IMG/VR virus record: IMGVR_UViG_3300025828_004167
Span: 1 to 64,000 of that record
Strand: one strand, 5' to 3'
DNA length: 64,000 nucleotides
Origin: a virus
Shown here: positions 3,251-40,485 of the stretch, piece after piece
Layout: each line of letters starts with the position of its first letter
Numbering within the stretch: the stretch's first letter is position 1
Made by a program: the position numbers and the translations under genes
The notes under the pieces: model-generated
Told to the model about the DNA's origin: nothing
Seen by the model: only the letters and a program-made list of their open reading frames with translations
The model's database searches: none

Positions 3251-3566
3251 CACTTGGGTACAGTTGACGAAGGACTTCGTCAAGGAATGGCCGGAGGTTT
3301 TGGAGGGACTACAGTTCCAGAACATGCCGGTCAAGTACCTGATGTATATAAACATAATACTCAAGAATAACATCACCATACATTACGACATAGCCAAAGA
3401 ACTGCGTAAAAAGAAGCAGGCCACGATAGCAAAATTTTTGAAAGAAACTATCGAGGCCAACTACCTCAAGATAAAATCTGTGGACCTAAAATTTGACATA
3501 CCTGCCCTGAAAAGAGACATGGAATCTAGGACTTCATTACTAATGGCCAAGACTTTTAAACGATAG
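3222..3566 (+). CDS. Unknown phage protein (114 aa)
   Basis: A 114-residue basic protein whose first ten residues overlap the previous gene in another frame. It contains two beta-strand/helix units (NITIHYDIAKELRKKKQATIAKFL and LKIKSVDLKFDIPALKRDM). It is the last rightward gene; its 3' end overlaps the convergent aminotransferase gene by 11 bp with no visible terminator between. I do not recognise the function. Confidence 0.6.
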   Translation: MPKRQPPKNSTWVQLTKDFVKEWPEVLEGLQFQNMPVKYLMYINIILKNNITIHYDIAKELRKKKQATIAKFLKETIEANYLKIKSVDLKFDIPALKRDMESRTSLLMAKTFKR

Positions 3567-4629
3567 AATTGAATTTTTTAATCACGTAACCGATCTCGTC
3601 ATCAGTCATCAACGGCCAGCAAGGTAGACTCAAAATTGTGTCCGCGACATGTTCCGTGTTTTCCAAATAATTTTTGCTACTATACACAGGTTGTGCATGA
3701 CAGCCTAAAGGCCACATGACTCCTGTCTGTATGCCGGCATCCTGTAATTTATTTTGAATGGTTAACCTGTCTTTTACTTGTATTGTGTACTGATTGTAGA
3801 CATTCTCACACCAATCTGCTGTCTTTACCATGGTGGTTGTTTTTAATTCTTTGTCGTATACAGAAGCGATGCGTCTCCTGTCCTTGTTGTGTGCATCAAT
3901 TTTAGTGATCATGTGATTCAGCACATTTGCCTGTACGGAATCCAACCTCTCATTCCAACCCAGAATTTCGTGTATATATTTGTCTGTGCGACCGTGATCC
4001 CTGGACATGGATATCCTATCTATATAACTTTGATCGCCAACCACAGCACCACCATCACCAAAGCACCACATGTTCTTGGCAGGATAGAAACTGAAACAGG
4101 TGAGATCATTGTATGTTCCGTTCATTTTGCCTTTGTATTTTCCACCAAAACTCTGAGCGGCATCCTGGACCACTGGAATGTTGCCCGCTATACTTTTGAC
4201 TGTGTCCCAGTCACAGGTGTGTCCAAATATGTCCACTCCAACGATTGCCTTTACATTTTTGTTTGCACTCAATATTTCTGCCAAATGATCCGTGTCAATG
4301 GTGTAGTTTTCCTTGTTGCAGTCGGCCCAAATTATTTCAAGTCCCAACTTACTTGCCATCTCTGGTGTGCTAATGAATGTGAAACTTGGAATGACTACCT
4401 TGTCTCCGGGGTTCAATCCAAGGCATTCATAAGCCAAAAGTAGAGCACTCGTACCACTGCTAACTCCAACGGCGGGAGCACCGCAGTACCTGGCTAGGTT
4501 CTTCTCGAATTCTTCAACCTTTGGTCCTTTGATGAACCAACTATTATCAATGCAGTCTTGCACGGCTTTGTCTAATTCTGCCTTTGACTCTTGATATATC
4601 CTGTTTAAATTTGCGTAGGGGACTTCCAT
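3556..4629 (-). CDS. DegT/DnrJ/EryC1-family sugar aminotransferase
   Basis: A 357-residue PLP-dependent enzyme of the DegT family, which transfers an amino group to a keto-sugar nucleotide to make amino sugars. Visible signatures: GVSSGTSALLLA (about 55-66), QDAAQSFGG with D156, the PLP lysine K185 in SFYPAKNMW followed by a GDGG loop, and the C-terminal SLPCWPLMTDDEI segment. Length fits the family. It ends the leftward operon and overlaps the upstream radical SAM gene by 25 nt. With the epimerase and carbamoyltransferase nearby it suggests synthesis of a modified deoxyamino sugar; the exact substrate cannot be read from sequence. Confidence 0.9.
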   Translation of the reverse strand: MEVPYANLNRIYQESKAELDKAVQDCIDNSWFIKGPKVEEFEKNLARYCGAPAVGVSSGTSALLLAYECLGLNPGDKVVIPSFTFISTPEMASKLGLEIIWADCNKENYTIDTDHLAEILSANKNVKAIVGVDIFGHTCDWDTVKSIAGNIPVVQDAAQSFGGKYKGKMNGTYNDLTCFSFYPAKNMWCFGDGGAVVGDQSYIDRISMSRDHGRTDKYIHEILGWNERLDSVQANVLNHMITKIDAHNKDRRRIASVYDKELKTTTMVKTADWCENVYNQYTIQVKDRLTIQNKLQDAGIQTGVMWPLGCHAQPVYSSKNYLENTEHVADTILSLPCWPLMTDDEIGYVIKKFNSIV

Positions 4630-5807
4630 TTATTCTCTAATTCTTGTTTCCAATCTAGGCCTTGTGCTTTATATTGTTTCGCTTCGTGTATTAACAAAGT
4701 GGTTGTGTGATCAAAGGCATCAAGAAAACCCACATCAAAAGGTTGTGCTTTGATCCCGGGTCCTTGCAGATGCTGTCTAACGATGTCAGTGACATTGGAG
4801 TTTTTGATGTTTCCAATGATATACCGATCACTGCCTGGTCTATCAAGGAAACCGGTCTCATGGTAAACATAAAGGTTACCCAAACTGTCTATGGATGTCG
4901 CTATCTGTGGCCACCCATGTCGGTCCATTTGTTCGTGCGTGGACATCTTGATAGGACCTGTTGGGTTGCCGTGTCTTACTGAGTGCAAGGCATAGCCATA
5001 GTCTATATGCACATCCGTGTGTTGTTCCACTTCAAGGAAAATCTTATGTAATTTTTCACGTTCCTCATCTGATATGTAGTTGTTGGATTGGGAGAAATCC
5101 TCCCTCAATGTTACAAATGATATCTTGAAATCAGACACACTGTTAATGTCTTTTATCATTCGGAACACACTTCTCACGTCTTCACTGTGCCCTGGCAGTA
5201 TTATCCAATTCACTCCTAATTTTATCTTGCTTCCTGTTGTTGGAACTTTTCTACAGAAGTCCTTTAGGTTCCTGGTAACGATATCAAATGCTTTTTTATT
5301 CTTTGTTACCCTGTAGTAACTTTCCTGGTCATGGCCATATAGGCTTATGCGCATGACTTCTAGATCCAGAATGCCGTGTTGCTTTTCCAAAAAATTTTCA
5401 GACAGAGCATAGCCATTGGTGTACATCTGCATCTTGAATCCTTTGCTGTTGCCGTAACTAATGATCTTGCCTATGTGTGGATTTGTAAGCGGTTCCAGTC
5501 CACCGCTTATCCTAAATCTATCCTGCCAGAATTTTCCTTCCTTGGGATCTTGGTCGATGACCTGTTTGAATACTTCGAAACTATTATCTATGTCCTCCGA
5601 CTGATATTTCGCATTGTAGTTCCTGCCACAGAAAGTGCAGAAGAACTGACAGGTCATTCCCGGATACAAGCCAATCCTGTTAGGGTAAGCGTATGTTCCC
5701 TCCACTGCGTGTTCCAGTGAACCATTGTTCAATAATGGACTAATTGTATTGTTCCAATATCTGTTTGATTCTATTTGATCTTTTTCGTGTTTGTATCCTA
5801 ACCTCAT
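4605..5807 (-). CDS. Radical SAM enzyme
   Basis: A 400-residue protein with the radical SAM cluster motif CQFFCTFC (C53, C57, C60) near the N-terminus, followed by the GGLEPL region that corresponds to the SAM-binding GGEP motif. The C-terminal part resembles a SPASM domain in layout (SLGNLYVYHETG, IIGNI) but lacks its cysteines, so auxiliary clusters are doubtful. It sits between a sugar aminotransferase and a glycosyltransferase-like gene, suggesting radical chemistry on a sugar or its carrier. The true substrate is unknown. Confidence 0.82.
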   Translation of the reverse strand: MRLGYKHEKDQIESNRYWNNTISPLLNNGSLEHAVEGTYAYPNRIGLYPGMTCQFFCTFCGRNYNAKYQSEDIDNSFEVFKQVIDQDPKEGKFWQDRFRISGGLEPLTNPHIGKIISYGNSKGFKMQMYTNGYALSENFLEKQHGILDLEVMRISLYGHDQESYYRVTKNKKAFDIVTRNLKDFCRKVPTTGSKIKLGVNWIILPGHSEDVRSVFRMIKDINSVSDFKISFVTLREDFSQSNNYISDEEREKLHKIFLEVEQHTDVHIDYGYALHSVRHGNPTGPIKMSTHEQMDRHGWPQIATSIDSLGNLYVYHETGFLDRPGSDRYIIGNIKNSNVTDIVRQHLQGPGIKAQPFDVGFLDAFDHTTTLLIHEAKQYKAQGLDWKQELENKWKSPTQI

Positions 5808-5815
5808 ATGATTGT

Positions 5816-7108
5816 TTATCCGTGCCTGTCCTCGAAGTATTTTTTTATCCAGTCGAAATCATAACTGCTATAGGGATCGTTGCCCTGCTCTAGGAACTCT
5901 ACGGCATCCAGCGCACCCTTATTGACCCATTCCGCGTTGTCGCCATTGCCTAACGTTAACCATTTTTTCAACCTATATGTGCTTTCCACAGTTGGCTTCT
6001 GCAACTTCAACTTGATTACTTCCCTGAACGCGGTCCTCCAGGCCAACAACGGGGTCTCGTCGAGGTTATTGACAGCACTCAACGTTGGTACTGACTGCAC
6101 CGGTTGGGATAGTGTGAAATCCAATCCCGGCTTGGTTGTTTCTAACACTAATCTTTTATTGTATAGTATGACTCCGTCATGTCCGTACGTGCAGTCAATT
6201 ACACTGTTGTAACAGTCAAAAATGTAATGGCATGGGTGCTTGAGTCTGTCTGGTTGGAAATCAAACTTGAAATCATCTACTACATCAATTTTTGGAAATA
6301 CGGCGAAGAAGTAGTCGGTCTTGCTCATCATCGCGGCCGTCATGTAGGCCAGTGTCTGCCCTTGGACATTCCTGCACCACTGCGTCCTTGGAAATTTGCT
6401 TTTCAGTCTGTTATACCTTTTCTCAGCGCCTGGTTCGTCATATGATATGAATATTATGTCCATGGGTTTAATAGCGTATTGTAGATCAAAGTTCACGTTC
6501 CTGTCTATGTCATAGAATTGTTTCAACCCCTGCCTGTGTGGCACCATCATGATGTCTTTGGTTTGTCCCCATGTGTAAACCTTTTCATCCTCCCAGAAAC
6601 TAGGATAGAAGTCTGGAAGATCTTGATCTTTTAGATCTTTGTTGATCAACCACTGATAGAAAATTTTATTTTTGTAGTATGATTCATAAGGATCACCTAA
6701 CTTGAAATAGGTTTTAGAAATGGGCCTTTGGAAAAGCGTTTCGTGTGGATGATAATTTATGTCTTTGAAATCTCTGAGAAACTTTAAATCTTTCATCTGT
6801 TCCTTGAATTTTTTTGTGGGTATCAACATGACATTCCCTTCTTTGTTGAGTCCTCCCATGGGATGGGTGGTGTACCATACGTGTATCTGGTCACGCTCGT
6901 GCTGTTCAGGAATGTAATCTAGGTCGATGTCGTCTAGTTTGACGAAATTTGAAAAGAACCAGAAGTATTCTGTCTTGACATCACCAACCACAGACTTGAG
7001 GATGTTGAAGTAACTATCGATGAATGGTACAACACGGGTGTTCGCTAGGGGCGATTCTATGTGAGTTGTGTTTTTAAATTTTACCTGTATACTGTCGAAT
7101 CCAGTCAT
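5816..7108 (-). CDS. Glycosyltransferase-like protein with a duplicated domain
   Basis: A 430-residue protein that appears to contain the same domain twice. Residues about 45-100 (KTEYFWFFSNFVKLDD...VMLIPTKKF) and about 216-320 (IFISYDEPG... KTDYFFAVFPKIDVVDD... VILYNKRL) align with each other and with the glycosyltransferase-like protein encoded at 22068-22970. In that paralogue the core reads ETDFFISIDGDN; here the DGD motif is changed in both copies, so catalysis may be lost or altered. The start at 7108 overlaps the epimerase gene by 35 nt and has only a weak ribosome site, so the N-terminus is uncertain. Confidence 0.65.
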   Translation of the reverse strand: MTGFDSIQVKFKNTTHIESPLANTRVVPFIDSYFNILKSVVGDVKTEYFWFFSNFVKLDDIDLDYIPEQHERDQIHVWYTTHPMGGLNKEGNVMLIPTKKFKEQMKDLKFLRDFKDINYHPHETLFQRPISKTYFKLGDPYESYYKNKIFYQWLINKDLKDQDLPDFYPSFWEDEKVYTWGQTKDIMMVPHRQGLKQFYDIDRNVNFDLQYAIKPMDIIFISYDEPGAEKRYNRLKSKFPRTQWCRNVQGQTLAYMTAAMMSKTDYFFAVFPKIDVVDDFKFDFQPDRLKHPCHYIFDCYNSVIDCTYGHDGVILYNKRLVLETTKPGLDFTLSQPVQSVPTLSAVNNLDETPLLAWRTAFREVIKLKLQKPTVESTYRLKKWLTLGNGDNAEWVNKGALDAVEFLEQGNDPYSSYDFDWIKKYFEDRHG

Positions 7109-8033
7109 AGTAACTTTCTAGTCCTTGCCTTAGAGAGAACAGGGGTTTATAACCTAAAAGATCCCTAGCTCTGCTGATGTCCAGAGTGCCACGCATCGGA
7201 TACAATTTGTGCATGCCTATGTCTTTGAGTTCTGACTTGCTCCCAGTTATGTCTATGATGGTCTCCGCCAGCGTCCGGAGGCTTGTGGCGTTTCCCGCCG
7301 TTATGTTGAAACTAGTGTTGGACACCTCTGAGATTGCGGCCTTGATTATGCCATAAGCGGCATCCTGTCTGTATGTGAAGTCCACCTTGTTGTCGCCATT
7401 GTGTAACGTGATGACATCATTGTTCATGGCCCTCTCGAAGAACTTGGATACCACCCTGTCAGGGAGATCGCCTGGCCCGTACACGCCACTGGGTCTAACT
7501 ATCACGTAGTTTAGACCGTCCCGCTGAGCGAACAGTTTGGTCATTCTCTCACCTGTGAGTTTGGCCTCACCGTATATGTTTTGTGGTCTTGTTATGGAAT
7601 CCTCACGAGTGCCATCCTTGAAGTCTCCGTACACCATGCTACTGCTGATGTACACAAATTTCTTGGCGCCAAACTTTGATGCGTGCCATAGTAGATTAGT
7701 TGTGGTATCTATGACTTTAGGTATGCCCAGTATGGGATCCTCGTCCACTATCTTGGCACGTGGATACGTGGCCATATGTATCACGATGTCTGGCGCTGTC
7801 TTAAATGCCCTCAGGCACACATCGCGATCAAGCAGGTCACCGTTGATCACAGAAACGTTCTTGTGGTCCCAGTGACGGGTTCTCCAGGCTATGAGCTTGT
7901 TCAACTCCACAGGCGATATTATACCGTATGTGTCCTTGTTGTCCACACAGATGATGCTGTGCCCTTCCTGTGATAATTTTTCTATGATCTTAGTCCCTAT
8001 GAATCCCAGTCCGCCAGTTATTAAAAATTTCAT
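7074..8033 (-). CDS. NAD-dependent epimerase/dehydratase (extended SDR)
   Basis: A 319-residue extended short-chain dehydrogenase acting on nucleotide sugars. It shows the Rossmann motif GGLGFIG (7-13), the catalytic serine region YISSSMVYG (about 128-136) and the YGEAK catalytic pair (Y154, K158). The C-terminal half has the usual substrate-binding features, including RPSGVYGPGD. It may convert or reduce a sugar nucleotide for the aminotransferase and carbamoyltransferase encoded beside it. Its start codon shares an A with the stop of the hidden lipoprotein gene upstream (TAATG). Substrate is not predictable. Confidence 0.9.
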   Translation of the reverse strand: MKFLITGGLGFIGTKIIEKLSQEGHSIICVDNKDTYGIISPVELNKLIAWRTRHWDHKNVSVINGDLLDRDVCLRAFKTAPDIVIHMATYPRAKIVDEDPILGIPKVIDTTTNLLWHASKFGAKKFVYISSSMVYGDFKDGTREDSITRPQNIYGEAKLTGERMTKLFAQRDGLNYVIVRPSGVYGPGDLPDRVVSKFFERAMNNDVITLHNGDNKVDFTYRQDAAYGIIKAAISEVSNTSFNITAGNATSLRTLAETIIDITGSKSELKDIGMHKLYPMRGTLDISRARDLLGYKPLFSLRQGLESYYDWIRQYTGKI

Positions 8034-8182
8034 TAGAATTCCTTCTTTACACCCACAGTTGGATTTTCAACACAACTGTCAGTTATATCTTTAATTGATT
8101 CTTTATCCATATCTATGCTACAACTGGCCGAGGGTTTAATTCCGCAACCAACTAACAATAATAACACAATTAGGTATCTCAT
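8033..8182 (-). CDS. Small lipoprotein (49 aa)
   Basis: A 49-residue frame fills the gap between the epimerase and carbamoyltransferase genes, joined by TAATG and ATGA overlaps. It begins MRYLIVLLLLVGCG: a short basic n-region, a hydrophobic core and a lipobox LVGC, with Cys13 as the predicted lipidated residue. The mature part would be about 37 residues with two further cysteines. Known small phage lipoproteins include outer spanins and superinfection-exclusion factors; no neighbouring inner spanin is seen. Its place inside a sugar-modification operon is unusual. The signal is clear, the role unknown. Confidence 0.7.
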   Translation of the reverse strand: MRYLIVLLLLVGCGIKPSASCSIDMDKESIKDITDSCVENPTVGVKKEF

Positions 8183-9651
8183 CCTAGCACTTTCACTCCG
8201 TACTTGCGGGTGAACGCTCGACCATCCTCACGATCATTCACGATAGGCTGTCCCTTTATGTTGAGGCTGGTGTTTAAGAGTATAGGGCAACCGGTCTGCT
8301 TTTTCCATTCTGTGAGCAGTGCGTGGAATCCGGGATTGTCCGTCTTACGCACGGTTTGAACCCTGGATGTGTGATCATGATGTATTATGGCAGGAAACTC
8401 TTTACCATGCGTACACGCCGCTGTAAATTGCATATAAGGGGTGTTTTTGACGGCTTTAGGTAGCTCAAAATAGTCGTTTACATCCTCTTCTAATATGGCC
8501 GGAGCAAACGGTCTAAACTGCTGTCTCTTCTTGATCGAGTTTACCAAATCCTTGATCTCAGGTCCTCGAGGATCTGCTAACAGTGATCTATTACCAAGCG
8601 CCCTAGGTCCAAATTCCGCCCTGCCGCTCGCAACACCAACCATCTTGTTTTCCTTCAATTCTTTGATCAGACTGTCCACGGGATATTCTCCATCTATGTT
8701 GTGTCCCAGGAACGGATGTTGCCAATTGAGGTGTGACTTCTGGTGTGCGGCTATACACCCTAGGCTTGACCCCGCATCACCAGGATTGGGTATGATCCAG
8801 ATGTTGTCAAACAGTCCCATGTCTGCGAGCACCCGGTTGGCGGCACAGTTCAATGCCACTCCTCCAGCATACACCAGATTACGTGATCCGTATCGGCTGG
8901 CTCTCGTCCATAAATCAGCGAGTAGTTCCTCCGTGACTGCTTGTATACTGGCGGCTATGTCCATGACATCCGCGTTTGTCTCCCAGTCACTCAATCCCCT
9001 GTGTAGATTCTTCTTGAGACTGAAAGGTGATTGATTGACAAATTCATCATAGATTTTCTGCTTGTACTTGGGTGTGCCATACGCGGCCATTCCCATCAGG
9101 ATGTACTCCTCTTCCGCCGGTTTCAATCCACAACGATGTGTGAATGCCGAATAAAGTATTCCTATGCTGTGTGGATACTTGATTGTCTCTTTCCTATCGA
9201 TCCATATCTTGTCTGCTGTGGATATAGACACGGTGTCCCACTCACCAATGGCATCCACTGTAAGTATTGTTGCTCCCTCGTCCTTGAACGGTGATGTGAA
9301 ATACCCCGCCGCCGCGTGTGAGTCATGGTGCTTTACGTACTCGTCAATCTTTATGTCAAAGTGATCCAAGTGCCACTGTGGCATCTCGGTATAGCTCATG
9401 GCAAGTCCATACTGTCCCGCGTAGAACTGCCTGGTCTTTTTCAACAATGGCTTCTCGTAGTACACCACCTTGTCGAAAGGTCCAAAGGTACGTGCCTCGT
9501 CCACTATCTTTTGGTTGAGGTAGTGGTCATTCTTGACCTTGCTGTATCTCTCCGCGTGTGCGGCCCACAGGATCTCTCCTATGCCTGAACTATAGTCAAC
9601 CACTGCCATGGCGGCATCATGATTCATGCAGTTAATTCCCAGTATTCTCAT
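8179..9651 (-). CDS. O-carbamoyltransferase (NodU/CmcH family)
   Basis: A 490-residue carbamoyltransferase of the NodU/CmcH/TobZ type, which uses carbamoyl phosphate and ATP to carbamoylate a hydroxyl group, usually of a sugar. It has the N-terminal Kae1-like domain with metal-binding HHDSHAA (H108, H109, D110, H112) and GGVALNCAANR. The C-terminal domain carries EFGPRALGNRSLLADPR and LNTSLNIKGQPIV. Length is somewhat short of the roughly 570 usual for bacterial members. A strong AAGGAGG ribosome site precedes ATG 9651. Carbamoyltransferases are recurrent in marine T4-like phages. Here it probably decorates the sugar made by the neighbouring genes. Confidence 0.92.
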   Translation of the reverse strand: MRILGINCMNHDAAMAVVDYSSGIGEILWAAHAERYSKVKNDHYLNQKIVDEARTFGPFDKVVYYEKPLLKKTRQFYAGQYGLAMSYTEMPQWHLDHFDIKIDEYVKHHDSHAAAGYFTSPFKDEGATILTVDAIGEWDTVSISTADKIWIDRKETIKYPHSIGILYSAFTHRCGLKPAEEEYILMGMAAYGTPKYKQKIYDEFVNQSPFSLKKNLHRGLSDWETNADVMDIAASIQAVTEELLADLWTRASRYGSRNLVYAGGVALNCAANRVLADMGLFDNIWIIPNPGDAGSSLGCIAAHQKSHLNWQHPFLGHNIDGEYPVDSLIKELKENKMVGVASGRAEFGPRALGNRSLLADPRGPEIKDLVNSIKKRQQFRPFAPAILEEDVNDYFELPKAVKNTPYMQFTAACTHGKEFPAIIHHDHTSRVQTVRKTDNPGFHALLTEWKKQTGCPILLNTSLNIKGQPIVNDREDGRAFTRKYGVKVLG

Positions 9652-9799
9652 CTTCCTCCTTGTGCCAACCTATGTCCTCTATGTTGTCACTGCTACACTT
9701 CGGACAGACGTACCATTCGTTTGCCGAATCGTCTTTGTCTAGTTCGTTAGCCACGCCCTTCCATTTACAATCGTAACAAAGAAAATTCCACCAGGTCAT
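9632..9799 (-). CDS. Small zinc-ribbon protein (55 aa)
   Basis: I choose ATG 9799, which makes an ATGA overlap with the upstream gene and follows a GAGGA ribosome site; a longer frame from 9844 would overlap by 49 nt without such support. The product has two CxxC pairs (C8/C11 and C32/C35) framing a single zinc ribbon, then an acidic tail. Zinc ribbons this small usually bind nucleic acid or serve as a protein-protein adaptor. The 3' end overlaps the carbamoyltransferase gene by 20 nt. Confidence 0.65.
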   Translation of the reverse strand: MTWWNFLCYDCKWKGVANELDKDDSANEWYVCPKCSSDNIEDIGWHKEEDENTGN

Positions 9800-10359
9800 G
9801 CTATCCTCAAAACCTTTTTGGTTTTCTCCAAATATTTCTCCCACTGCTCCAGCGTGATGTCGTACTCGAAGTTCTGTGTGGTCTCGTTCTTTCTCAAAAG
9901 TTTGGCGCCATTCTTGATGTGGAACCGTTCCGCCATCTCCGTCAAGGGACTCAGCGTCACCAACCTGTCTATGTGATGTTCCCTCTTGAATTTCTTATAT
10001 ACTTCGTTGAGTATGTGTTTGCCACCACCCTTCTTTTTAGCCCATACTGTGTAGGCTATCGCTATCCTGCCCACCAGGCCGCCACGCAGTATGCTCTGGT
10101 TGTAGGCGTCATGTGACATCAACGCCATCTCCTCTACAGTGGCTGGCACATCATTAGTGAACGCTATACATATGATCGCGGCAGTGTCTCCCTCATCGTC
10201 TCGTAGTCCTAGTATGCGTTTGCCATTGCTCTTGCGGAACTCCACGCTCAGTTCTGGCCTCACTGGATCCTCCGTGACATCTATTTCTGTGAGATCCACC
10301 AATTCAAATCGCGGATTTCTTTTGAACAGATCTTTTAACTTCTGTTTTATCTTTTCCAT
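9796..10359 (-). CDS. GNAT-like acyltransferase
   Basis: A 187-residue protein whose C-terminal two thirds read as a GNAT fold. A beta-strand (GRIAIAYTVWAKK) leads into a glycine-rich turn GGGKHILNEVYKKF in the place of the acetyl-CoA loop. A second strand-helix unit follows (DRLVTLSPLTEMAERFHIKNGAKLL). The N-terminal 50 residues are basic then beta-rich. Sequence identity to characterised enzymes cannot be judged here, so the activity is a fold-level inference. Its context suggests acylation of a sugar or protein. Confidence 0.55.
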   Translation of the reverse strand: MEKIKQKLKDLFKRNPRFELVDLTEIDVTEDPVRPELSVEFRKSNGKRILGLRDDEGDTAAIICIAFTNDVPATVEEMALMSHDAYNQSILRGGLVGRIAIAYTVWAKKKGGGKHILNEVYKKFKREHHIDRLVTLSPLTEMAERFHIKNGAKLLRKNETTQNFEYDITLEQWEKYLEKTKKVLRIA

Positions 10360-10362
10360 GTG

Positions 10363-10467
10363 CTATTTGTATATGAAAGGATCTTTTTTCTTAAGTTCTT
10401 TTAATCTCTTCCTGTACCGAATCTCTTCTCTGATCTTGTTCCACATTCTCTTAAACCATCTGATCAT
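10363..10467 (-). CDS. Small basic helical peptide (34 aa)
   Basis: A 34-residue, highly basic frame (MIRWFKRMWNKIREEIRYRK...DPFIYK) with a perfect AGGAGG ribosome site five bases before its ATG. It overlaps the SGNH gene by 17 nt and ends three bases before the next start. It should form one amphipathic helix. The ribosome site is among the strongest in the window, which supports expression. It may contact membrane or nucleic acid; no function is known to me. Confidence 0.6.
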   Translation of the reverse strand: MIRWFKRMWNKIREEIRYRKRLKELKKKDPFIYK

Positions 10468-16975: not shown

Positions 16976-16982
16976 TGTTGTG

Positions 16983-25100: not shown

Positions 25101-25106
25101 ACCACA

Positions 25107-25135
25107 ATTATACAATAATTATGGTGGAAATTCAA
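25107..25135 (-). promoter_or_regulatory. Sigma70-like promoter (TTGAAT-N17-TATAAT) of the left accessory operon
   Basis: On the minus strand, TTGAAT (25135-25130) and TATAAT (25112-25107) are separated by 17 bp in the 48-bp gap after a fibre gene. Transcription would begin at or next to ATG 25100. It is well placed to drive the leftward accessory genes toward 3556. Confidence 0.62.
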
Positions 25136-27750: not shown

Positions 27751-27757
27751 GTACGGG

Positions 27758-27765
27758 TATTTATG
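27758..27765 (-). promoter_or_regulatory. Late promoter motif (CATAAATA) for the tail-fibre gene
   Basis: CATAAATA on the minus strand overlaps the stop codon of the upstream oxygenase gene and ends seven bases before ATG 27750 of the fibre gene, which has no ribosome site. It matches the NATAAATA late consensus of T4-like phages and is followed by the same AC context (ATAAATAC) as two other sites in the window. Confidence 0.5.
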
Positions 27766-33056: not shown

Positions 33057-33867
33057 AATCAAATGCTATCCTGTGGAGTAATCTGTTTTTCATGCCGTCA
33101 AAACTCCATCTTTTGTGTATGCTCAACCATTGCTCGGATATGACAAGATCGTTGTCCTGCCACGCATGATGGTAGATGTACTTTTCCTGTGTACAGTGTT
33201 CCTTGAGTAGTTTGTGTAACTCCTTCCATTCCTCTCTTGTTGCTCCTTCCACTATATCGTACACTTGCTGGAATGGAAAGTAAAGTCCTTTTTTACCCTC
33301 TTTGTTCGTATGAACAAGACTGATAGGGTTTTCATAATTTATTTTTTCCTTTGCTACTGCCATGTTGCTGAACGAACCCACTTTATACCCAGAAGCATAT
33401 TTTATAGTTTCCAGTTTTCTTTTCATTTCCATTGACAGGTCGTTGTATGCCATTTCCTGGTTTATCCAACTTGTACGTGATCCTGCACTGCCCTTAACGG
33501 CGTACAGCCAGACGAATGGGTATCTCTTCACGGCATTGGCATGATGTGTGTGCCAATCCAGTTCCTCGTCGTGACCGAACAGTCCCTTGTCACCTTTAGC
33601 ATTCAACTCTCCTGTGACTCTGATCACGCCTGGTTCGATCAGTATCCGTTCTTTCTCCGCGGCGTCCTTCCCATGATCCAGTTTTACTGTGCCAATGCTC
33701 GAAGCGATTCTCATCTGGTCCTGTATCGTTAGAGTTTGATCTCTGAATATCACCACAAAATGCCTGTTACACAATTTTGCGACTTCATGCAGTTGTGTTA
33801 CAGAAAGGCTGTTGATGTCCTCGTGTATTGTTAGTGTCCAACCGTTACTGTCTATTGATGATTTCAT
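33025..33867 (-). CDS. TauD/TfdA-family dioxygenase-like protein with altered iron site
   Basis: A 280-residue protein of TauD/TfdA layout: FVVIFRDQTLTIQDQMRIASSIG, the active-site strand ELDWHTHHANAVKRYPFVWLYAV, and a C-terminal LSIHKRWSFDGMKNRLLHRIAFDY with the distal His and Arg. The usual WHTD is WHTH here, so the carboxylate iron ligand is replaced by His. A three-His site is possible, or the protein may no longer be an oxygenase. AGGA is five bases before ATG. It is flanked by canonical oxygenases. Confidence 0.72.
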   Translation of the reverse strand: MKSSIDSNGWTLTIHEDINSLSVTQLHEVAKLCNRHFVVIFRDQTLTIQDQMRIASSIGTVKLDHGKDAAEKERILIEPGVIRVTGELNAKGDKGLFGHDEELDWHTHHANAVKRYPFVWLYAVKGSAGSRTSWINQEMAYNDLSMEMKRKLETIKYASGYKVGSFSNMAVAKEKINYENPISLVHTNKEGKKGLYFPFQQVYDIVEGATREEWKELHKLLKEHCTQEKYIYHHAWQDNDLVISEQWLSIHKRWSFDGMKNRLLHRIAFDYDKAYTKKLA

Positions 33868-34669
33868 CCAAATCCTGCTGTCCTTGTAATGATATAATGA
33901 TGTGTGACCTGGTTGTTGAACCTTTGTTCCATGCCGAATGCCTCATTCCTTGATTCAAAAACCAGCAGGATCCGGGTTCCATTTTTTGATAAACTTTTTC
34001 ACCAGACTTGTCCACACAGTAGAAACCACATTTATCATTCGTAGTGATAGGTATATGGAAACGCACAGAGTAATCGGTGTTGTAGTCTATGTGTTCGGCC
34101 ACGTATGCTCCGGGATCCATGATCGCTATCCTGGCCCTCGTGGTCTCCGCCTTGAATGATGTGATCACTTCCTCGAGGTAAGTGCCTTTGACCCAATCCT
34201 TGATCTTGTTGTAGTGTCTCTCATCAAGTCTACTCTTGGGTATCTTTTTATCGTATACCCTCGTCTCTTCGTCTGGATTATATTGAGTTAAGGCAATCTG
34301 TTTGTAGGGAGATCCATTGACCTCGTACTTGCCGTTCTCGTCCTTCTGTATGTAATTCTCAAAGGGCTTGACATAGTTCCTGTAGTCCCAAGCCATCCTC
34401 TTGTTGCCCAGTCCCTTGCGCAGTTCTGATTCTTCAACATCGTTGTCCTGTAGGAACTTGTAGGCGTCCTCTATGGAATCAAACTTCAAGCCGAATGCCT
34501 TCTGTAGTTTAGGTGATTTACCCCCAACCCTAACTCCGTATCCATATTTGGTTTTCAGATCATCCTCTGCGACTGGCATGTCCTGTACCACTTTGATCAT
34601 CCTGTCAACGTCAAACGTTTGATCTAGTTTCAAGAAAGGTGGCAGTTCGTATCTAGTCTTTAATTTCAT
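33845..34669 (-). CDS. Aspartyl/asparaginyl beta-hydroxylase-like oxygenase
   Basis: I choose ATG 34669, preceded by AAGGGG; a longer frame to 34720 would need TTG and a 68-nt overlap. The 274-residue product has HID in YVAEHIDYNTDYSVRFHIPI, then GFYCVDKSGEKV, and FLNQGMRHSAWNKGSTTRSHIIISL with the distal His and Arg. This is the beta-hydroxylase arrangement. The N-terminal 120 residues form an extra domain with a YGYGVRVGGKSPKLQKAFG segment that I do not recognise. It may select the protein or sugar substrate. Confidence 0.75.
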   Translation of the reverse strand: MKLKTRYELPPFLKLDQTFDVDRMIKVVQDMPVAEDDLKTKYGYGVRVGGKSPKLQKAFGLKFDSIEDAYKFLQDNDVEESELRKGLGNKRMAWDYRNYVKPFENYIQKDENGKYEVNGSPYKQIALTQYNPDEETRVYDKKIPKSRLDERHYNKIKDWVKGTYLEEVITSFKAETTRARIAIMDPGAYVAEHIDYNTDYSVRFHIPITTNDKCGFYCVDKSGEKVYQKMEPGSCWFLNQGMRHSAWNKGSTTRSHIIISLQGQQDLDEIINRQ

Positions 34670-35201
34670 AAGTCCCCTTGTATTGCCAACACGATTCATG
34701 TTTGGGATCACACACCGCAACCTTGCCTTCGTGCATTTTCCATTCCGTGTCAGTTTTTTCGCCCAATTCTATAAAGAGTCTCTTCATAAATCCCGGGTTT
34801 CTACATCTACTGATAAACACTTTATTGTAGCCTGCTTCCTTGGCAAATGTCAACTGATGTTTTACCGTGGCTACTAGGTGTGGCCTGGCGATCAATCTCC
34901 CATTCATCCTAAGTTTTGGATGTTCCCAGTACCTATTTAGAATACGTGCTTCTCCCTCATCATAATACTCAGGACGGTGCCATACAGAACTAAAACCAAG
35001 CACTTCTTTTTCCTTCAGTAGCACAGTGATACAGTCAAAAGCAAACCAATCTATGTTCTCATAGTTGCTGGCTATCTCTTCCGAACCAAAATCTATGTCT
35101 CTCAACTGCTTGAGAATATCTGTACGATCCCCTGGGGCGAAAGTCAGCACATCGCACTCGCTGTTCTTGTTGGCAAAATTTTTATCTCCAGGCGTGAACA
35201 T
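34653..35201 (-). CDS. GNAT-like acetyltransferase
   Basis: I place the start at ATG 35201 (MFTPGDKNFANKN), which leaves only a 20-nt overlap; the frame extends upstream to 35276 inside another gene. The 182-residue product reads as a GNAT fold: FDCITVLLKEKEVLGFSSVW, RPHLVATVKHQLTFAKEAGYNKVFISR, and a C-terminal beta unit. The acetyl-CoA loop is less clear than usual. It sits among oxygenases and would acylate a product of theirs or a sugar. Confidence 0.55.
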   Translation of the reverse strand: MFTPGDKNFANKNSECDVLTFAPGDRTDILKQLRDIDFGSEEIASNYENIDWFAFDCITVLLKEKEVLGFSSVWHRPEYYDEGEARILNRYWEHPKLRMNGRLIARPHLVATVKHQLTFAKEAGYNKVFISRCRNPGFMKRLFIELGEKTDTEWKMHEGKVAVCDPKHESCWQYKGTYEIKD

Positions 35202-35766
35202 TGTTCCAGAATTCCTTTTTCTTTTTACCATGCACCAGAAGATGCACACGTTCTTGATCTGAATTGTTCTCAACATAGTGCTCGTAGTGTATGTTTAAAA
35301 CCAACGGCATTCCGGGCACATAATCTACCTGTTTATTGTTTAAAACGAATCTGTTACCTTCGGGATAACTCAGACAGATGTTTAAAGGTTCTAACCAGTT
35401 GCGTTCTGGCACATCTATGTGCTTTGTGATATAACCGTTTGGTTTGATCACAAGGAATCTTATGTCATCTATCCTAGCGTATGGCAAACTCTTTACCCAC
35501 TCTATTGTGCGTGGACAACGTTCGCCAACATCAGTTACACCTGGCTTTTGTTTTTTGCGATCATACTCCCAATGGCTGTTTGTCTTGTCTGAAGCGAATC
35601 CATAAAGGGTCACGGCACACCAATCCTTGTGTCCGTCCTCTGGCCTGTGTATGACTAGCCTATCCTTGATCAGTTCGTATTCCGTCAAAATTTGTTTGAC
35701 CGGGACATCGAAGTCCATCTGCACGTATTCCACACTGCTGTTTCTATCAAATTTTTGAGTGTTCAT
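35182..35766 (-). CDS. Aspartyl/asparaginyl beta-hydroxylase-like oxygenase
   Basis: Start at ATG 35766, five bases after AAGGA; a longer frame would run 95 nt into the desaturase gene. The 194-residue product has HID in GYITKHIDVPERNWLEPLNICL, then NRFVLNNKQVDYVPG, and the distal block IHYEHYVENNSDQERVHLLVHG. That block is very like YDKHWVENNSSEQRLHIIYSG in the protein at 29564-30217, so the two are close paralogues. A protein Asp/Asn hydroxylase is the family expectation. Confidence 0.75.
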   Translation of the reverse strand: MNTQKFDRNSSVEYVQMDFDVPVKQILTEYELIKDRLVIHRPEDGHKDWCAVTLYGFASDKTNSHWEYDRKKQKPGVTDVGERCPRTIEWVKSLPYARIDDIRFLVIKPNGYITKHIDVPERNWLEPLNICLSYPEGNRFVLNNKQVDYVPGMPLVLNIHYEHYVENNSDQERVHLLVHGKKKKEFWNNVHAWR

Positions 35767-36310
35767 GATGATCCTTGTGGTTCCCTTCAAATGGTGCAAC
35801 CAAATTGATGAGGAATCTGTTTGCAGGACCCTTGGCATCATGTCCGTAAAAATTCAGTATACCAAAACCTACATATGAAAGAATGTATAACATTAGGTTA
35901 ATTATAACTGCATTTACGCCAAAAAGCAATGTTGTTATTATCCAGTGTGCGGCGAAAATAAGTTTGCCGTACCTGTGGAAAAACATCACTCTTGGATTTT
36001 TTATTAGATCGTCAATATATTTTCTTGGTATTTGTTTTACCTTCCATAAACTGAAGAGAATCACATGCCAAGGATGATTCCTAGGACTGTGTGGGTCCTT
36101 GTCTGTGTCTGCATAAGCGTGGTGTATCCTATGAACACCTGCCCAGGTCAATGCACTCCTACCACCGCATAACAATCCAAGATATAGAAGTACGATTTCT
36201 GCCAATGGACTGGCTTTGTAATCACTGTGTGAGAAGTATCTGTGGTATCCGTAGGTTATTCCAACTGCGGCCACAAGCCAATAAATCATGTATCCATATA
36301 ATAATATCAT
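35747..36310 (-). CDS. Membrane fatty-acid desaturase (compact)
   Basis: A 187-residue integral membrane di-iron enzyme of the acyl-CoA/acyl-lipid delta-9 desaturase type. All three histidine boxes are present: HRYFSH, HRIHHAYADTDKDPHS and NHKDHHEH at the C-terminal end. There are hydrophobic helices at about 1-20, 36-50, 115-150. It is far shorter than the roughly 300 residues usual for bacterial enzymes, with reduced membrane segments and N-terminus. It would introduce a double bond into host membrane lipids, changing fluidity during infection. No ribosome site is clear before ATG 36310. Confidence 0.85.
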   Translation of the reverse strand: MILLYGYMIYWLVAAVGITYGYHRYFSHSDYKASPLAEIVLLYLGLLCGGRSALTWAGVHRIHHAYADTDKDPHSPRNHPWHVILFSLWKVKQIPRKYIDDLIKNPRVMFFHRYGKLIFAAHWIITTLLFGVNAVIINLMLYILSYVGFGILNFYGHDAKGPANRFLINLVAPFEGNHKDHHEHSKI

Positions 36311-36343
36311 GCTAGATATTTAACCGTCATTTCCTTCATGCTT

Positions 36344-36754
36344 TTACGATCCTACAAATCCTTTATTATTATTTGTTGTAATCATAGGTTGACCTGGTAC
36401 ATCATAATGGTACTGTTCCATTTCAGACCAATTTCTTAAATCTTCACCTTCTTCAACACCACATTTTTCTCTACAAGGACGAGGTGCATTATTAGGATCA
36501 TCAAACATAATATCCCAAAATGCTTTCCATTCTTTAGAGTGAGTAATTTCTTTAATATCTTTTACCTTATCAAGATGTAAATGTTCACTATATAATGCTT
36601 CGTGTTCTTTTGTTAATGGTTTTTTAGATTGAAATGCTTTGCTATCGCACCAACAACAAGGTAACAAAAATCCTAAAGCACTATGACCCATAGTAACTCT
36701 ATCCCCCACAACACATTTAGGTACTATCTTATCTATTTTCTTTTGTTTGGACAT
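36344..36754 (-). CDS. SPASM-like cysteine protein, C-terminal half of a split radical SAM enzyme
   Basis: A 136-residue protein from ATG 36754, 26 nt inside the end of the next upstream gene. Its cysteines (C-VVG...LPCCWC, PRPCREKC) and the HLHLDKVKDIKEI strand correspond to the C-terminal SPASM block of the fused enzyme at 18488-19495 (PLCLIGNKG, PCCW, ECFEKC). The radical SAM core is the upstream gene, so the enzyme appears to be encoded as two polypeptides. The DNA is very AT-rich (Lys AAA, Leu TTA, Asn AAT, Ile ATT dominate), unlike its neighbours, which indicates recent acquisition. Confidence 0.72.
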   Translation of the reverse strand: MSKQKKIDKIVPKCVVGDRVTMGHSALGFLLPCCWCDSKAFQSKKPLTKEHEALYSEHLHLDKVKDIKEITHSKEWKAFWDIMFDDPNNAPRPCREKCGVEEGEDLRNWSEMEQYHYDVPGQPMITTNNNKGFVGS

Positions 36755-37391
36755 AATTCTCTTTATTTTTAGGCACACCTGCTTCCATATAATGAAACCT
36801 AGATGACTTTTTAAGTAACAATTTAATTTTTTTATCTTTACAAAATTTTTTTGCGTCTTCTATTTGACGTTCATTAAAAGAAAATATTATAAATTGCCAC
36901 GCTACATTAAAACCTAATTCTTTTAATTTTATCATAGTATCAAATAAAAATTCTGAGTCTTGGTTATGACGGTATATATGACTAACATCTGGAAAACCAT
37001 CTAGTCCTATTTTCCAATATATTCTTTCAGGATATATTTCACTTATTTTTTTATACCAATCAAACTTTTTATTTTTAACGGTTGCGGCTGTGTGTATTGA
37101 TAGATAATTTATTTTATGTTCTTTGGCAATTTCTATAAATTTTGCTAGATTAGGATTAAAAATAGGATCAGATATTTGACCACATAAACATAAATGTTTA
37201 AAATGTTTACATAGTTTTGTCCATTGAGAGATTGAAGTATCGTAACCAGGTATAGGTTTACCTGCAAATCTATTCGTTTGCCTAGAACAAGCAATACATT
37301 CTAAAGTACACTTATTACTAATATCTAAATTTACGCTAGGTCTACTAATAAATCTATTATATAATTGTTTATAATTTTGTGAATGACTCAT
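36729..37391 (-). CDS. Radical SAM core protein, N-terminal half of a split enzyme
   Basis: A 220-residue protein from ATG 37391 after GGGAAG; the frame extends 75 nt further into the glycosyltransferase gene but codon use changes at this ATG. The cluster motif CTLECIAC is followed by CLCGQISDP in the place of GGEP and by WKIGLDGF. The order matches the core of the enzyme at 18488-19495. The last residues lack the SPASM region, which is supplied by the next gene. The DNA is as AT-rich as that gene's, so the pair came in together. Confidence 0.75.
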   Translation of the reverse strand: MSHSQNYKQLYNRFISRPSVNLDISNKCTLECIACSRQTNRFAGKPIPGYDTSISQWTKLCKHFKHLCLCGQISDPIFNPNLAKFIEIAKEHKINYLSIHTAATVKNKKFDWYKKISEIYPERIYWKIGLDGFPDVSHIYRHNQDSEFLFDTMIKLKELGFNVAWQFIIFSFNERQIEDAKKFCKDKKIKLLLKKSSRFHYMEAGVPKNKENYVQTKENR

Positions 37392-38085
37392 AATCTTCCC
37401 AGTCATGTGGTTTATTTGTGGCATGGGTAAAGTGCACCATTTTGATGTCTGGATGAAATTCACCACCCAAATAAACGTAGTCGTTGCCCGTGACCTTGTG
37501 GTACAACTGACTGGTCTTGACCTTCCATTTATTTAAATCAAAATTTTTCACACCAATATCCTCTTTGGCGCACCATCTAGCGACCCAACTGTCAGGCACC
37601 GTGATCAATTCCAGTTCCTCATTGACGTTGTCTTCAACGAAGTACTGCTCCCCATTCACCGGTCCCTTTGCTATGCCCCTCTTGATGTAGTAGCTCTGCC
37701 AGAAGTCTGGGTCTGACATGAACTTGTCATAGATATACCTGCAGTCCTTGGGATAGTACTTGAAGAACCCTCCATTTATCTTGTAGCGTTTCTTTTCTGT
37801 GTCTCTCCACCATCCCGGTATCGAAACAAACTGACCTTTCTTTATGGGATACTCAAAAAGTTCTTTATAGTTGTTGACCAAAAGCACGTCAATGTCCATT
37901 ACAACTATGGGTTCGTCAATGTCTAAAGACATACCATACATTTTATTCCATTGCAGTAATACACCTTCTTTTATTGGCTTTCGTATCCATATAAATTCAT
38001 ACTCCGGCAATTTTTCTTCCAAGTATTTCTCGTACTCTGGACCGTACCTGTCACCTATGCGCACTGCTACAATTTTCATCGCCAT
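37369..38085 (-). CDS. Glycosyltransferase-like protein with DxD motif (GT8-like)
   Basis: A 238-residue GT-A-type protein with KIVAVRIGDRYGPEYEKYL at the N-terminus, the acidic motif VVMDIDVLL (about 62-70), a KINGGFFKYYPKD donor-region loop and a C-terminal HPDIKMVHFTHATN. The DxD and the final His-rich strand fit retaining GT8-like transferases. GAGGT precedes ATG 38085. It overlaps the nitroreductase-like gene by 10 nt. Sugar donor and acceptor unknown. Confidence 0.72.
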   Translation of the reverse strand: MAMKIVAVRIGDRYGPEYEKYLEEKLPEYEFIWIRKPIKEGVLLQWNKMYGMSLDIDEPIVVMDIDVLLVNNYKELFEYPIKKGQFVSIPGWWRDTEKKRYKINGGFFKYYPKDCRYIYDKFMSDPDFWQSYYIKRGIAKGPVNGEQYFVEDNVNEELELITVPDSWVARWCAKEDIGVKNFDLNKWKVKTSQLYHKVTGNDYVYLGGEFHPDIKMVHFTHATNKPHDWEDYESFTKL

Positions 38086-38801
38086 TTTATGACCTCATCT
38101 AATGTTGGCTTCGCCACCCAGCTCTTGTGATTGAATCTGTCATAGTCTCCATAGCCTATGCCCATGACGAACGCCAAACCAGATCTCAGTGTGATGTCAT
38201 TGTGTATCGCAGGCTCATAGAAATAACATTTACAGAAAGAAACATCTAATCCCTGTTCCACAGCCAACATCGTTGTGACCATCGCGTTCATGCCCGCCTG
38301 CTGATTGAATTGATCCTTATGGATTTTTTCAACCTTGTCAAAAATTTGTTGTAGTTTTCCGCTTTCCCAGTACTTGCCCTGTTTCTGAGATTTCCTCATT
38401 TTCTGTGTGGCCGGATAGTACGCCAGGAGATATGGAGCCGTGACCTGGTTGTTGAAGTGCCAACTGTCGTCCTTGATGTACTGCTTGGTCTTGTCTCCGT
38501 AATGATAGGCCAACCAGTCATCATATCTCGTTTCCAACTCCTTGGCCATCTCCAGTGTCATGTTGCTCCATCTATTGTGATCATTCTTGTGTTTTCCACA
38601 CACTGTGCTCATGGCCAATTTCTTCTTCTGCGCAGAATGTTCAGGACCATACACATCTATCTCGTAGTGCCAAAAATTGTTCTTGTGTGGTGTCAGCTCT
38701 TTTGCTTTTTCCAGTATTTGCTGTATCAAGGCAACATCGGGTATCCTGTCCTGTTTGAAGAAAGAAATGTTCCTCCTCTTTTTCAGCAGATCTTCTATCA
38801 T
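38076..38801 (-). CDS. Nitroreductase-family protein
   Basis: A 241-residue protein with the nitroreductase N-terminal pattern (LLKKRRNISFFKQDRIPDVALIQQIL). The later dimer-interface and flavin segment includes QQAGMNAMVTTMLAVEQGLDVSFCKCYF and GIGYGDYD. Enzymes of this fold bind FMN and reduce nitro, quinone or enone groups; some act as flavin-dependent dehydrogenases in peptide modification. It is encoded between a glycosyltransferase and a methyltransferase. Substrate cannot be read. Confidence 0.72.
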   Translation of the reverse strand: MIEDLLKKRRNISFFKQDRIPDVALIQQILEKAKELTPHKNNFWHYEIDVYGPEHSAQKKKLAMSTVCGKHKNDHNRWSNMTLEMAKELETRYDDWLAYHYGDKTKQYIKDDSWHFNNQVTAPYLLAYYPATQKMRKSQKQGKYWESGKLQQIFDKVEKIHKDQFNQQAGMNAMVTTMLAVEQGLDVSFCKCYFYEPAIHNDITLRSGLAFVMGIGYGDYDRFNHKSWVAKPTLDEVIKWR

Positions 38802-39454
38802 ATCTTCGTTCCTATTATCATGAATCTTTTGTATTTGCCGAAATCTTTCTCATAGAACTTGATGTTCCTCAATTTCGACACGTACTGATTCGCGAAATCC
38901 TCCACCGTGTCCACACAATTGATGTGTTGTGTTATTTCCCTGTAGTTGTTGCTCTGCAACACGACCAATGTGTGTTCCTCTAATTTACTTATAGTGTCGT
39001 AGATCATGGATTGATCAAGATGTTCACAGGATGTACATATAACAATGGAATTTTCAAACTTATCTATTTCTTTGATATCCTTTTCAACAAATTTAATGTA
39101 TGTTAGGTAACCATTTTTCAAATTATCAGCATCAACTTTCTGCCATAGTTTTTTAGCCACAGTTTTGGCTTGTGGATCAAAATCTACACAATCTATGTGA
39201 CCTATCTTTTTCAGTGTCAATTTTTTTACCAACATGTGTGCCAACAGTCCATACCAACTGCCTAAAATAGAAACACTGATATTTTTATCCAACGTCTTGC
39301 ATTTGAAATGGTGAGGATATTCATTTAATTTTTCAATCAGCCAGTCTTTACTAGCATACTGATTTGTGCTGAGACTATCAATGACGTCAATTATTCTGTC
39401 TGGACATTTCTCTAACAGTCTCTTTACCGTGTCTAGTGTGTCCCTATCAAACAT
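38798..39454 (-). CDS. Methyltransferase-like Rossmann protein
   Basis: A 218-residue protein whose middle reads as a class I Rossmann fold: SVSILGSWYGLLAHML in place of motif I, IGHIDCVDFDPQAKTVAKKLW ending strand 2 with an acidic residue, and SIVICTSCEHLD at motif IV. The glycine-rich loop is reduced to GSWYG, weaker than in the two methyltransferases at 30-31.5 kb. It overlaps its neighbours by 4 and 8 nt. Methyl transfer is likely but not certain. Confidence 0.55.
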   Translation of the reverse strand: MFDRDTLDTVKRLLEKCPDRIIDVIDSLSTNQYASKDWLIEKLNEYPHHFKCKTLDKNISVSILGSWYGLLAHMLVKKLTLKKIGHIDCVDFDPQAKTVAKKLWQKVDADNLKNGYLTYIKFVEKDIKEIDKFENSIVICTSCEHLDQSMIYDTISKLEEHTLVVLQSNNYREITQHINCVDTVEDFANQYVSKLRNIKFYEKDFGKYKRFMIIGTKI

Positions 39455-40022
39455 ATTTTTGATTGTGCAACAGTATTGTGTTGTGTTCCACTCCCTCCTG
39501 CCAGCTGGATATCTGATCTCCTATGAAATAGTTGTATTTGACGTCTTCGTTGTAGATGTATCTGTCTATACCAGAGTACAATCTCACATATAGATCTCTG
39601 TGTTTCATGAACTTTTCAAACACGTGCCGTTGATCGCTCCAACGCATTATCGAAGAGTTCACCAGCGTGTTCTGTGTCACACGGAATTTCAAGGGCGTCT
39701 TCAAAGATTCCTGTTTCCATGCACTGCTGTTGACCAAGGTCAACCCTTCGAAATCACTCGCTAAGAAATCAATGTTATCATTTATGGCTATGTCTAAATC
39801 AAAGAACAAGCACTGTCCCGTGAACTGTAGTAGGGATAACTTATGGAACACACCACGCAGTTCGGGGTGCGTGACTGGAATATCATACTCCTTCTCTGGT
39901 CTATCTGTGAGACATCTAAATGTGTGATCTAATGTGAGATGTTCTGCGACAGAGTTTTTTAACTTTTTATCAAAGTCTCTGGTGTATTTCGTTCCGACGT
40001 TAACACAGTATACATCAATCAT
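39447..40022 (-). CDS. Small glycosyltransferase-like protein with DxD motif
   Basis: A 191-residue protein from ATG 40022 (a TTG codon upstream is unlikely), sharing a TGATG-type overlap with the gene before it. It has VYCVNVGTKYTRDFDKKL, a GVFHKLSLLQFTGQCLFFDLDIAI segment whose DLD is the acidic motif, and NSSIMRW. It is shorter than the other GT8-like genes. Related proteins usually transfer a hexose to a surface glycan. Confidence 0.68.
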   Translation of the reverse strand: MIDVYCVNVGTKYTRDFDKKLKNSVAEHLTLDHTFRCLTDRPEKEYDIPVTHPELRGVFHKLSLLQFTGQCLFFDLDIAINDNIDFLASDFEGLTLVNSSAWKQESLKTPLKFRVTQNTLVNSSIMRWSDQRHVFEKFMKHRDLYVRLYSGIDRYIYNEDVKYNYFIGDQISSWQEGVEHNTILLHNQKYV

Positions 40023-40485
40023 CAAAGTTATTGTAGGCCACCAACAGCTCGAGCGGTGTCTTTGCTGATCTTAGTTGAGATTTCTTTTCCTTGTCGGTAG
40101 ACCCCTTCACTTTTTCTGTTTCAAATATTTCCACCTTGGTGGTGAACAACATTTCCTTACACTGTGCGTCGTTTGGATCAAAGTTCAGTATGCACTTGAC
40201 GAAGTCCTCCACAGATACACGTTGTTTGATATCTGTTTTTGACTTTATGCCAGCGTCCACTATGTCGCTCAGTTGCTGTGCGTATCTCCTGTTCCGGGCG
40301 ATCGTGGCCTCCGCTATCTTGTCCGTGCTGTATTCCGACACGAGGTCCTTGAAGTCTTGGTTGTTGTAATCAACCGGGAGATAATGATTTATCGCCCGCT
40401 TGCCGTCCTCATAGATCACCTCGACTGTGTTGTTTTCTGAATTTGCGAAATACGCCTCTATTATTTTTCCACTGAATATTGCCAT
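40015..40485 (-). CDS. Unknown phage protein (156 aa), lead gene of the right accessory operon
   Basis: A 156-residue protein with a beta-rich N-terminus (FSGKIIEAYFANSENNTVEVIYEDGKRAIN) and a helical remainder (STDKIAEATIARNRRYAQQLSDIV). It has a good sigma70-type promoter upstream and an AAGGA ribosome site six bases before ATG 40485. It is the first gene of the leftward right-hand accessory block and directly follows a structural gene. Proteins of this size next to fibre genes are sometimes assembly chaperones, but nothing in the sequence shows it. Confidence 0.6.
   Translation of the reverse strand: MAIFSGKIIEAYFANSENNTVEVIYEDGKRAINHYLPVDYNNQDFKDLVSEYSTDKIAEATIARNRRYAQQLSDIVDAGIKSKTDIKQRVSVEDFVKCILNFDPNDAQCKEMLFTTKVEIFETEKVKGSTDKEKKSQLRSAKTPLELLVAYNNFDD

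Follow-up and report, generated by a model that had tools for sequence, protein, structure and literature searches.

The stretch of viral DNA analysed here, the window, comprises the first 64,000 nucleotides of the 72.8-kb IMG/VR virus record IMGVR_UViG_3300025828_004167 and carries, between positions 3556 and 40485, an island of redox and group-transfer enzymes set among tail-fibre genes. This island would be the host-recognition locus of the phage, in which block 1 (3556-25100) may represent a conserved glycan-assembly module serving tail-fibre or baseplate proteins, and block 2 (27761-40485) a further set of modifying enzymes, tied to the fibres and open to exchange; as a whole, this account is given about an even chance of being right. 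The product of block 1 is most likely a glycan. Block 1 has the same orientation as the fibre genes and is apparently co-transcribed with them. In the presumed order of steps, three GT-A-type glycosyltransferase-like proteins (g25, g27 and g28) would assemble a short glycan, and five non-interchangeable twitch radical S-adenosylmethionine (SAM) enzymes (g15-g18 and g24) would tailor its sugars together with SGNH enzymes and the O-carbamoyltransferase g12. The distal end of the block holds exchangeable nucleotide-sugar genes (DegT, DesII-like and epimerase genes here, an oxidoreductase and a PIG-L-like deacetylase in relatives), which would determine what one of the sugars is, and the finished glycan would most probably be attached to tail-fibre or baseplate proteins from the same operon.

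A scan with the radical SAM gene g17 returned 58 IMG/VR loci at 73-93% identity, 20 of which were fetched with 49-81 kb each and used for mapping all window genes. The core consisting of g10, g12, g14, g15-g18 and g24-g31 occurs in the same order in all 20 relatives and is always flanked by g05-g07 on one side and g53-g55 on the other, while the variable parts are g08/g09, with orthologs in G046 only, and g19-g23. A second virus clade, whose g24 proteins share 56-63% identity with that of the window, keeps the series g54-g31-g30-g28-g27-g25-g24-g18-g17-g15-g16, often together with g12, its version of the core being about 57% identical. As judged from this conservation across relatives, a chance origin of the gene set is excluded. 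Block 2, in contrast, is complete in none of the 20 relatives, largely present in G024, partly present in G025 and G040, and replaced in the other 17. The sequence-only reading had regarded the island as one 37-kb complex forming a single line with a single product, and had proposed to look for a subset of genes that always travel together. Such a subset and such a line are indeed apparent in block 1, but not in the exchangeable block 2, and the gene content of the relatives led to the rejection of the two blocks as one unit: because block 1 is syntenic and block 2 mostly absent elsewhere, the island is better described as a conserved line accompanied by a strain-specific cassette. The ratios of non-synonymous to synonymous substitutions (dN/dS, NG86 method) indicate that block 1 is under strong purifying selection near the level of the baseplate genes, with values of 0.04-0.09 for g12, g14, g15, g24, g27 and g28 (0.04 for g15), 0.03-0.05 for g54 and g56, and 0.11-0.17 for the fibres, many pairs being dS-saturated and some values stemming from one to three pairs.

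The glycosyltransferase genes are conserved over an even wider range. Scans with g25 and with the g18/g24 radical SAM subtype yielded at least 596 and at least 517 relatives in IMG/VR, respectively, and 67 distant loci were inspected, which come from best-80 lists rather than a random sample and were each tallied only where the sequence suffices. Among these, g27 (23247-24041; all genes are on the minus strand unless stated otherwise), a glycosyltransferase-like protein, lies directly upstream of g25 (22068-22970) in 66/66 loci. The retaining-type glycosyltransferase g28 (24034-24786) precedes g25 in 64/64, the small core protein g29 (24783-25115) in 55/59, and the structural-like protein g30 (25149-26105), a constant neighbour of the glycosyltransferases, in 56/57. 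Fibre genes lie ahead of g25 in 44 of 49 loci, and a twitch radical SAM gene follows downstream in 28 of the 37 with enough sequence. These counts suggest a nucleus of fibre protein, g29 and three glycosyltransferases, which recurs in hundreds of IMG/VR contigs and to which the radical SAM team is often, though not always, attached. In the near clade, the small protein g26 (22949-23263) and the tail-fibre protein g31 (26110-27750), which matches PHROGs tail fibres, are present in all 20 relatives. The structural model of g28, with a predicted local distance difference test score (pLDDT) of 89, matches the retaining GT-A enzymes LgtC/GalT in Foldseek (E 4e-6) and thus predicts an LgtC/GT6/GT8-like fold, which together with an invariant DxD motif identifies g28 as a probable GT-A enzyme. 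The model of g25 (pLDDT 87) gives weak GT-A matches (E 6e-4, template modelling score about 0.3), all top hits being GT-A-like, and its DxD motif is invariant as well.

The five members of the radical SAM team all exceed the cut-off of 170 for the twitch radical SAM family NF033640, with scores of 287-415 bits: g15 (11265-12431) reaches 366, g16 (12413-13732; present in 20/20 relatives) 317, g17 (13719-15002) 415 and g24 (20708-22078) 321 bits, the fifth member being g18 (14992-16347). They show an N-terminal twitch domain followed by a CxxxCxxC core, and their Cys motifs are kept in alignments of 21 genomes. Within the family, g18 (CxAKW...CHHP) and g24 (CxAKW...CYHPP) belong to a separate CxAKW/CxHP subtype that is also present in Bdellovibrionota. 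In a tree calculated by a quick method, the g18 and g24 types fall into two deeply separated clades, and both of these contain viral as well as bacterial members. The g18 of this genome is a divergent allele on a long branch; a 7.7-kb contig (L132) contains a 73% match to it plus g19, g20 and g22. The insertions between g18 and g24 comprise the 2-oxoglutarate (2OG) oxygenase-like g19 (16340-16975; HxD motif; with g20/g22 in L132 and L268), the B12-binding radical SAM protein g20 on the opposite strand (17009-18487, plus), the radical SAM/SPASM protein g21 (18488-19519), g22 (19479-19988), which has no assigned family, and g23 (19972-20715), a second SGNH-like protein paralogous to g14. When cultured phages were searched at the DNA and protein level for the radical SAM proteins, g25 and g30, the only matches were weak radical SAM ones in Vibrio phages K566 and K567. 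These two are the sole cultured-phage matches to the twitch family, and in K566 three radical SAM genes lie side by side.

A glycan as product is best supported by findings in cells, namely the predatory Bdellovibrionota, where families of both window blocks meet in glycan clusters. Genes for the g18/g24-type radical SAM proteins are found in 46 of 129 genomes of one class of Bdellovibrionota, and families g15, g21, g24, g25 and g49 all occur in chromosomal glycan clusters of this group. One such cluster, near flagellin on a 112-kb contig (L393), reads GT2, GT2, PMT-like, FAD oxidase, g25, g24, GT2, GT2, DegT, epimerase and twitch radical SAM; another, beside grpE-dnaK-dnaJ on a 2.04-Mb contig (L395), reads GT2, GT2, g15, g49, g21, g25, membrane glycosyltransferase, FAD oxidase, g24 and GT2. 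Among ten g25-family regions of the class, eight contain a twitch radical SAM gene, and GT2, DegT or epimerase genes lie nearby in six. The sequence-only reading had favoured modification of a surface glycan or of the tail proteins; these neighbourhoods support modification of a glycan. A further bacterial chromosome contig, beside trmD, pheS and pheT (L416, at the end of G108:C21), carries a viral-type g30-g29-g28-g27-g25 block with radical SAM genes, possibly as a prophage, a domesticated module or a chimeric assembly.

The distal end of block 1 contains genes for the DegT/DnrJ sugar aminotransferase g08 (3556-4629), which is nearer to DesV (2oga) than to DesI (2po3) and has an ortholog only in G046 among the relatives, and the overlapping DesII-like radical SAM protein g09 (4605-5807), resembling sugar-nucleotide deaminases, which occurs only in G000 and G046 among 47 records. 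Although this pair recalls the DesII/DesV part of the desosamine pathway, g09 scores 317 bits against the DesII equivalog TIGR04426, below its cut-off of 450, and may be said to work like DesII at most. A complete desosamine pathway was rejected, the window holding a single, DesV-like DegT protein and no clear DesI. Other relatives carry different sugar-nucleotide genes at this end, read from the sequence as a Gfo/Idh-like oxidoreductase with a DegT protein, or a PIG-L-like deacetylase. The adjoining genes code for g10 (5816-7108), with a g25-like glycosyltransferase domain as its C-terminal half, the NAD-dependent sugar epimerase/dehydratase g11 (7074-8033), which is frequent but not universal in relatives, the O-carbamoyltransferase g12 of the NodU/TobZ family (8179-9651; Carbam_trans_N and Carbam_trans_C both over cut-off with 148 and 187 bits), the GNAT-like protein g13 (9796-10359; no Pfam match), and the SGNH-like esterase/acyltransferase g14 (10451-11272), recognized by motif only. 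Of these, g10, g12 and g14 are present in 20/20 relatives and g13 in 15/20.

Fibre types and enzyme sets are exchanged together at the site of block 2. In most relatives, the space from g31 to g53 is taken up by two fibres, one Gly-rich and the other g31-like, in place of block 2. Where the Gly-rich fibre ends in a C-terminal Hint (hedgehog/intein-like) domain, as in G004 (L075:17831-19252), G011, G022, G027, G033, G043 and G045, it stands beside a GNAT-SDR-2OG gene trio in 7/7 cases, and this trio occurs in 0/13 other relatives; the Gly-rich fibres outside those seven genomes have different tails. Similarly, the fibre-site protein type of g52 (40538-41470) is accompanied in 5/5 genomes by an enzyme cassette of varying composition (glycosyltransferase-like g47/g50, g51, PP-loop and radical SAM proteins), and the g47, g50, g51 and PP-loop families are absent from the g31-g53 site in the other 16 genomes. 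Since fibre types co-occur with specific enzyme sets, fibre tips and enzymes are swapped as units, linked genes sharing descent and so providing weaker evidence than independent ones. In the window, block 2 (g32-g51) encodes eight oxygenase-like and three methyltransferase-like proteins, the glycosyltransferase-like g47 and g50, the desaturase g44, the PP-loop protein g38, the nitroreductase-like g48 and a radical SAM/SPASM protein split over g46 and g45 (36344-37466). The latter counts as a split gene because its N-terminal half (36729-37466) is followed by the SPASM half in the next, overlapping open reading frame (36344-36778) in a different frame; G025 and G040 have full-length versions of 342-343 amino acids, and the split could be genuine decay or an assembly error.

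Scans of the window genes with Pfam, NCBIfam and PHROGs, combined with motif searches, recovered the enzyme inventory of the sequence-only reading. Exactly nine radical SAM loci lie at 4605, 11265, 12413, 13719, 14992, 17009 (plus strand), 18488, 20708 and 36729 in the whole 72.8-kb record. Four of the nine oxygenase-like proteins reach Pfam cut-offs (29564, 33845 and 35182 as Asp_Arg_Hydrox, 33025 as TauD), the other five being called from HxD motifs and context; an automatic HxD...H...R pattern, which paired residues wrongly in several of the oxygenases, carries no weight in these calls. None of the six glycosyltransferase-like proteins (5816, C-terminal half; 22068; 23247; 24034; 37369; 39447) matches a Pfam glycosyltransferase family. 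The carbamoyltransferase, DegT, epimerase, desaturase and two of the three methyltransferases score above Pfam cut-offs, the third methyltransferase and the SGNH, GNAT, PP-loop and nitroreductase proteins are motif-level calls, and PHROGs gave next to no annotation for the block enzymes. Adjacent genes overlap or lie no more than 10 nt apart in 38 of 46 pairs. Beyond block 2 follow the fibre protein g53 and the baseplate-associated protein g54 (phrog_11259; together 41518-43464), then g55, a structural protein of 4212 amino acids (43474-56112), and directly next to it the baseplate wedge protein g56 (g55 and g56 together 43474-59594), an arrangement conserved in relatives. On the other side, the island is adjoined by the conserved gene for a DUF2201 metallopeptidase/VWA protein, g02 (371-1612). 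Among cultured phages, the closest relatives of the baseplate genes occur in the jumbo myophages Phosso, Atu_ph07, SCTP-2, PA5oct and GAP32, which corrects the earlier label of a marine T4-like phage.

Tail-fibre or baseplate proteins are favoured over the host surface as carrier because the genes lie in a structural operon, lipid-linked export genes were not found in the incomplete related records, and motifs resembling late promoters are present. The motif TATAAATA occurs in 26 of 152 minus-strand intergenic regions of 21 genomes, against 1.8 expected, although its frequency within the window alone is not above chance; in the window it lies at 59616-59609 upstream of g56, and the late-promoter-like TACAAATA lies just upstream of g13. 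Across the genomes compared, TA[TC]AAATA precedes g56 in 11/19 and g13 in 12/16 cases, and none was found before g15-g30 or g53-g55. This motif resembles the T4 late promoter, which suggests that the island may be transcribed late, together with the fibre and other virion genes. Alternatively, the module may remodel a host surface glycan (O-antigen or capsule), either for superinfection exclusion or for keeping new virions off debris, its linkage to fibres then reflecting a host-recognition locus. Such a role was proposed for the glycosyltransferases of pelagimyophage host-recognition clusters (PMC7029224), and it agrees with the bacterial homologs sitting in surface-glycan clusters and with a variable sugar end reminiscent of serotype variation. 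It is nevertheless considered rather unlikely, as no initiating transferase (PF02397), WecA (PF00953), flippase (PF01943), polymerase/Wzy (PF04932) or other lipid-linked step was found in 26 related records, themselves incomplete, the enzymes are soluble except for the membrane-like desaturase, and the apparent co-transcription with virion genes suggests late action.

SPASM/twitch radical SAM enzymes often act on peptides, and the team might instead modify protein side chains of the fibre or of g26, g29 or g30 in the manner of peptide maturases, with the glycosyltransferases acting on the same protein. A bacterial chromosomal operon adjoining obgE and rplU (L133) indeed contains the radical SAM subtypes and a small secreted protein with no glycosyltransferase beside them, and the best PDB matches of g25 include, weakly, the peptide glycosyltransferases SunS/ThuS. 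No precursor-like peptide is kept in both clades, however, and the closest cellular sets lie in glycan clusters, which makes this explanation improbable; g26, considered as a precursor peptide, went undetected in the second clade. Even less weight is given to a recombination hot spot collecting unrelated auxiliary genes that share no product. The free variation of block 2 and of g19-g23 and the split radical SAM gene would fit it, and for block 2 it is possible, but the order of block 1 kept across two deep clades and its strong constraint contradict it there. Biosynthesis of a diffusible small molecule, for which the resemblance of the DesII-like, carbamoyltransferase and B12 radical SAM proteins to enzymes of natural-product pathways would speak, seems very improbable, since neither a scaffold-making enzyme nor a transporter was found and the linkage to fibre genes is fixed. 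Several points also weigh against the proposed glycosylation of tail proteins. The records are fragments, and export genes could sit elsewhere; a recombination site common to fibres and enzymes could account for their linkage; in 9 of the 37 distant virus loci, no twitch radical SAM gene lies near the fibre-glycosyltransferase nucleus; the L133 operon suggests that the substrate of the team may there not be a glycan; and the homologs in cells serve glycans of the cell surface, which is also compatible with modification of the host surface.

If the host-recognition locus does glycosylate tail proteins, many aquatic phages would devote a large share of their structural region to making an unusual glycan, and the chemistry of that glycan, and not the sequence of the fibre protein alone, may determine shielding or receptor specificity. 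The module would also suggest substrates that can be tested with a radical SAM subfamily for which the literature found gives no function, and the Bdellovibrionota glycan loci containing g24 and g25 would be a concrete cellular system for working out the chemistry. A bolder version, put forward only tentatively, is that an ancient team of five radical SAM proteins and three glycosyltransferases decorates the host-binding fibres of a very widespread uncultured lineage of aquatic phages with a radical-tailored glycan, and was exchanged as a set with surface-glycan clusters of predatory Bdellovibrionota. A literature search retrieved no paper on twitch radical SAM proteins in phages or on this module, and the papers found describe neither the team of five conserved enzymes, nor its joint exchange with fibres, nor a Bdellovibrionota counterpart.

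Among known systems, the T4-like marine genome TARA_ERS488813_N000010, compared by description only, shares the richness in radical SAM genes of a marine myovirus; its 12 genes were read as Fe-S metabolism, with no link to fibres or glycans drawn in the available part of that account (Nishimura et al., 2017; PMC5332604). Mycobacteriophages have proteins carrying glycans, these being located on capsid and tail tube, with no radical SAM team mentioned in the portion of the source at hand (Freeman et al., 2023, cited in PMC12619734). A close parallel is the host-recognition cluster of pelagimyophages, a large island that is likewise embedded among structural genes, combines tail fibres with radical SAM cassettes and glycosyltransferases, mostly of family GT8, and was proposed to change the host O-antigen (Zaragoza-Solas et al., 2020; PMC7029224). 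That cluster is described as non-syntenic and hypervariable, whereas the core found here keeps its order in 20/20 relatives and again in the second clade; the phage lineage differs as well, the baseplate being nearest to those of jumbo myophages. The pelagimyophage cluster lies between VrlC and the neck protein gp14, and the present island has g55/g56 as its flank on one side. That host-recognition clusters of marine phages contain glycosyltransferases and radical SAM cassettes is therefore already known, and the five-enzyme team, the coupling of fibres to enzymes and the cellular counterpart are absent from the literature found.

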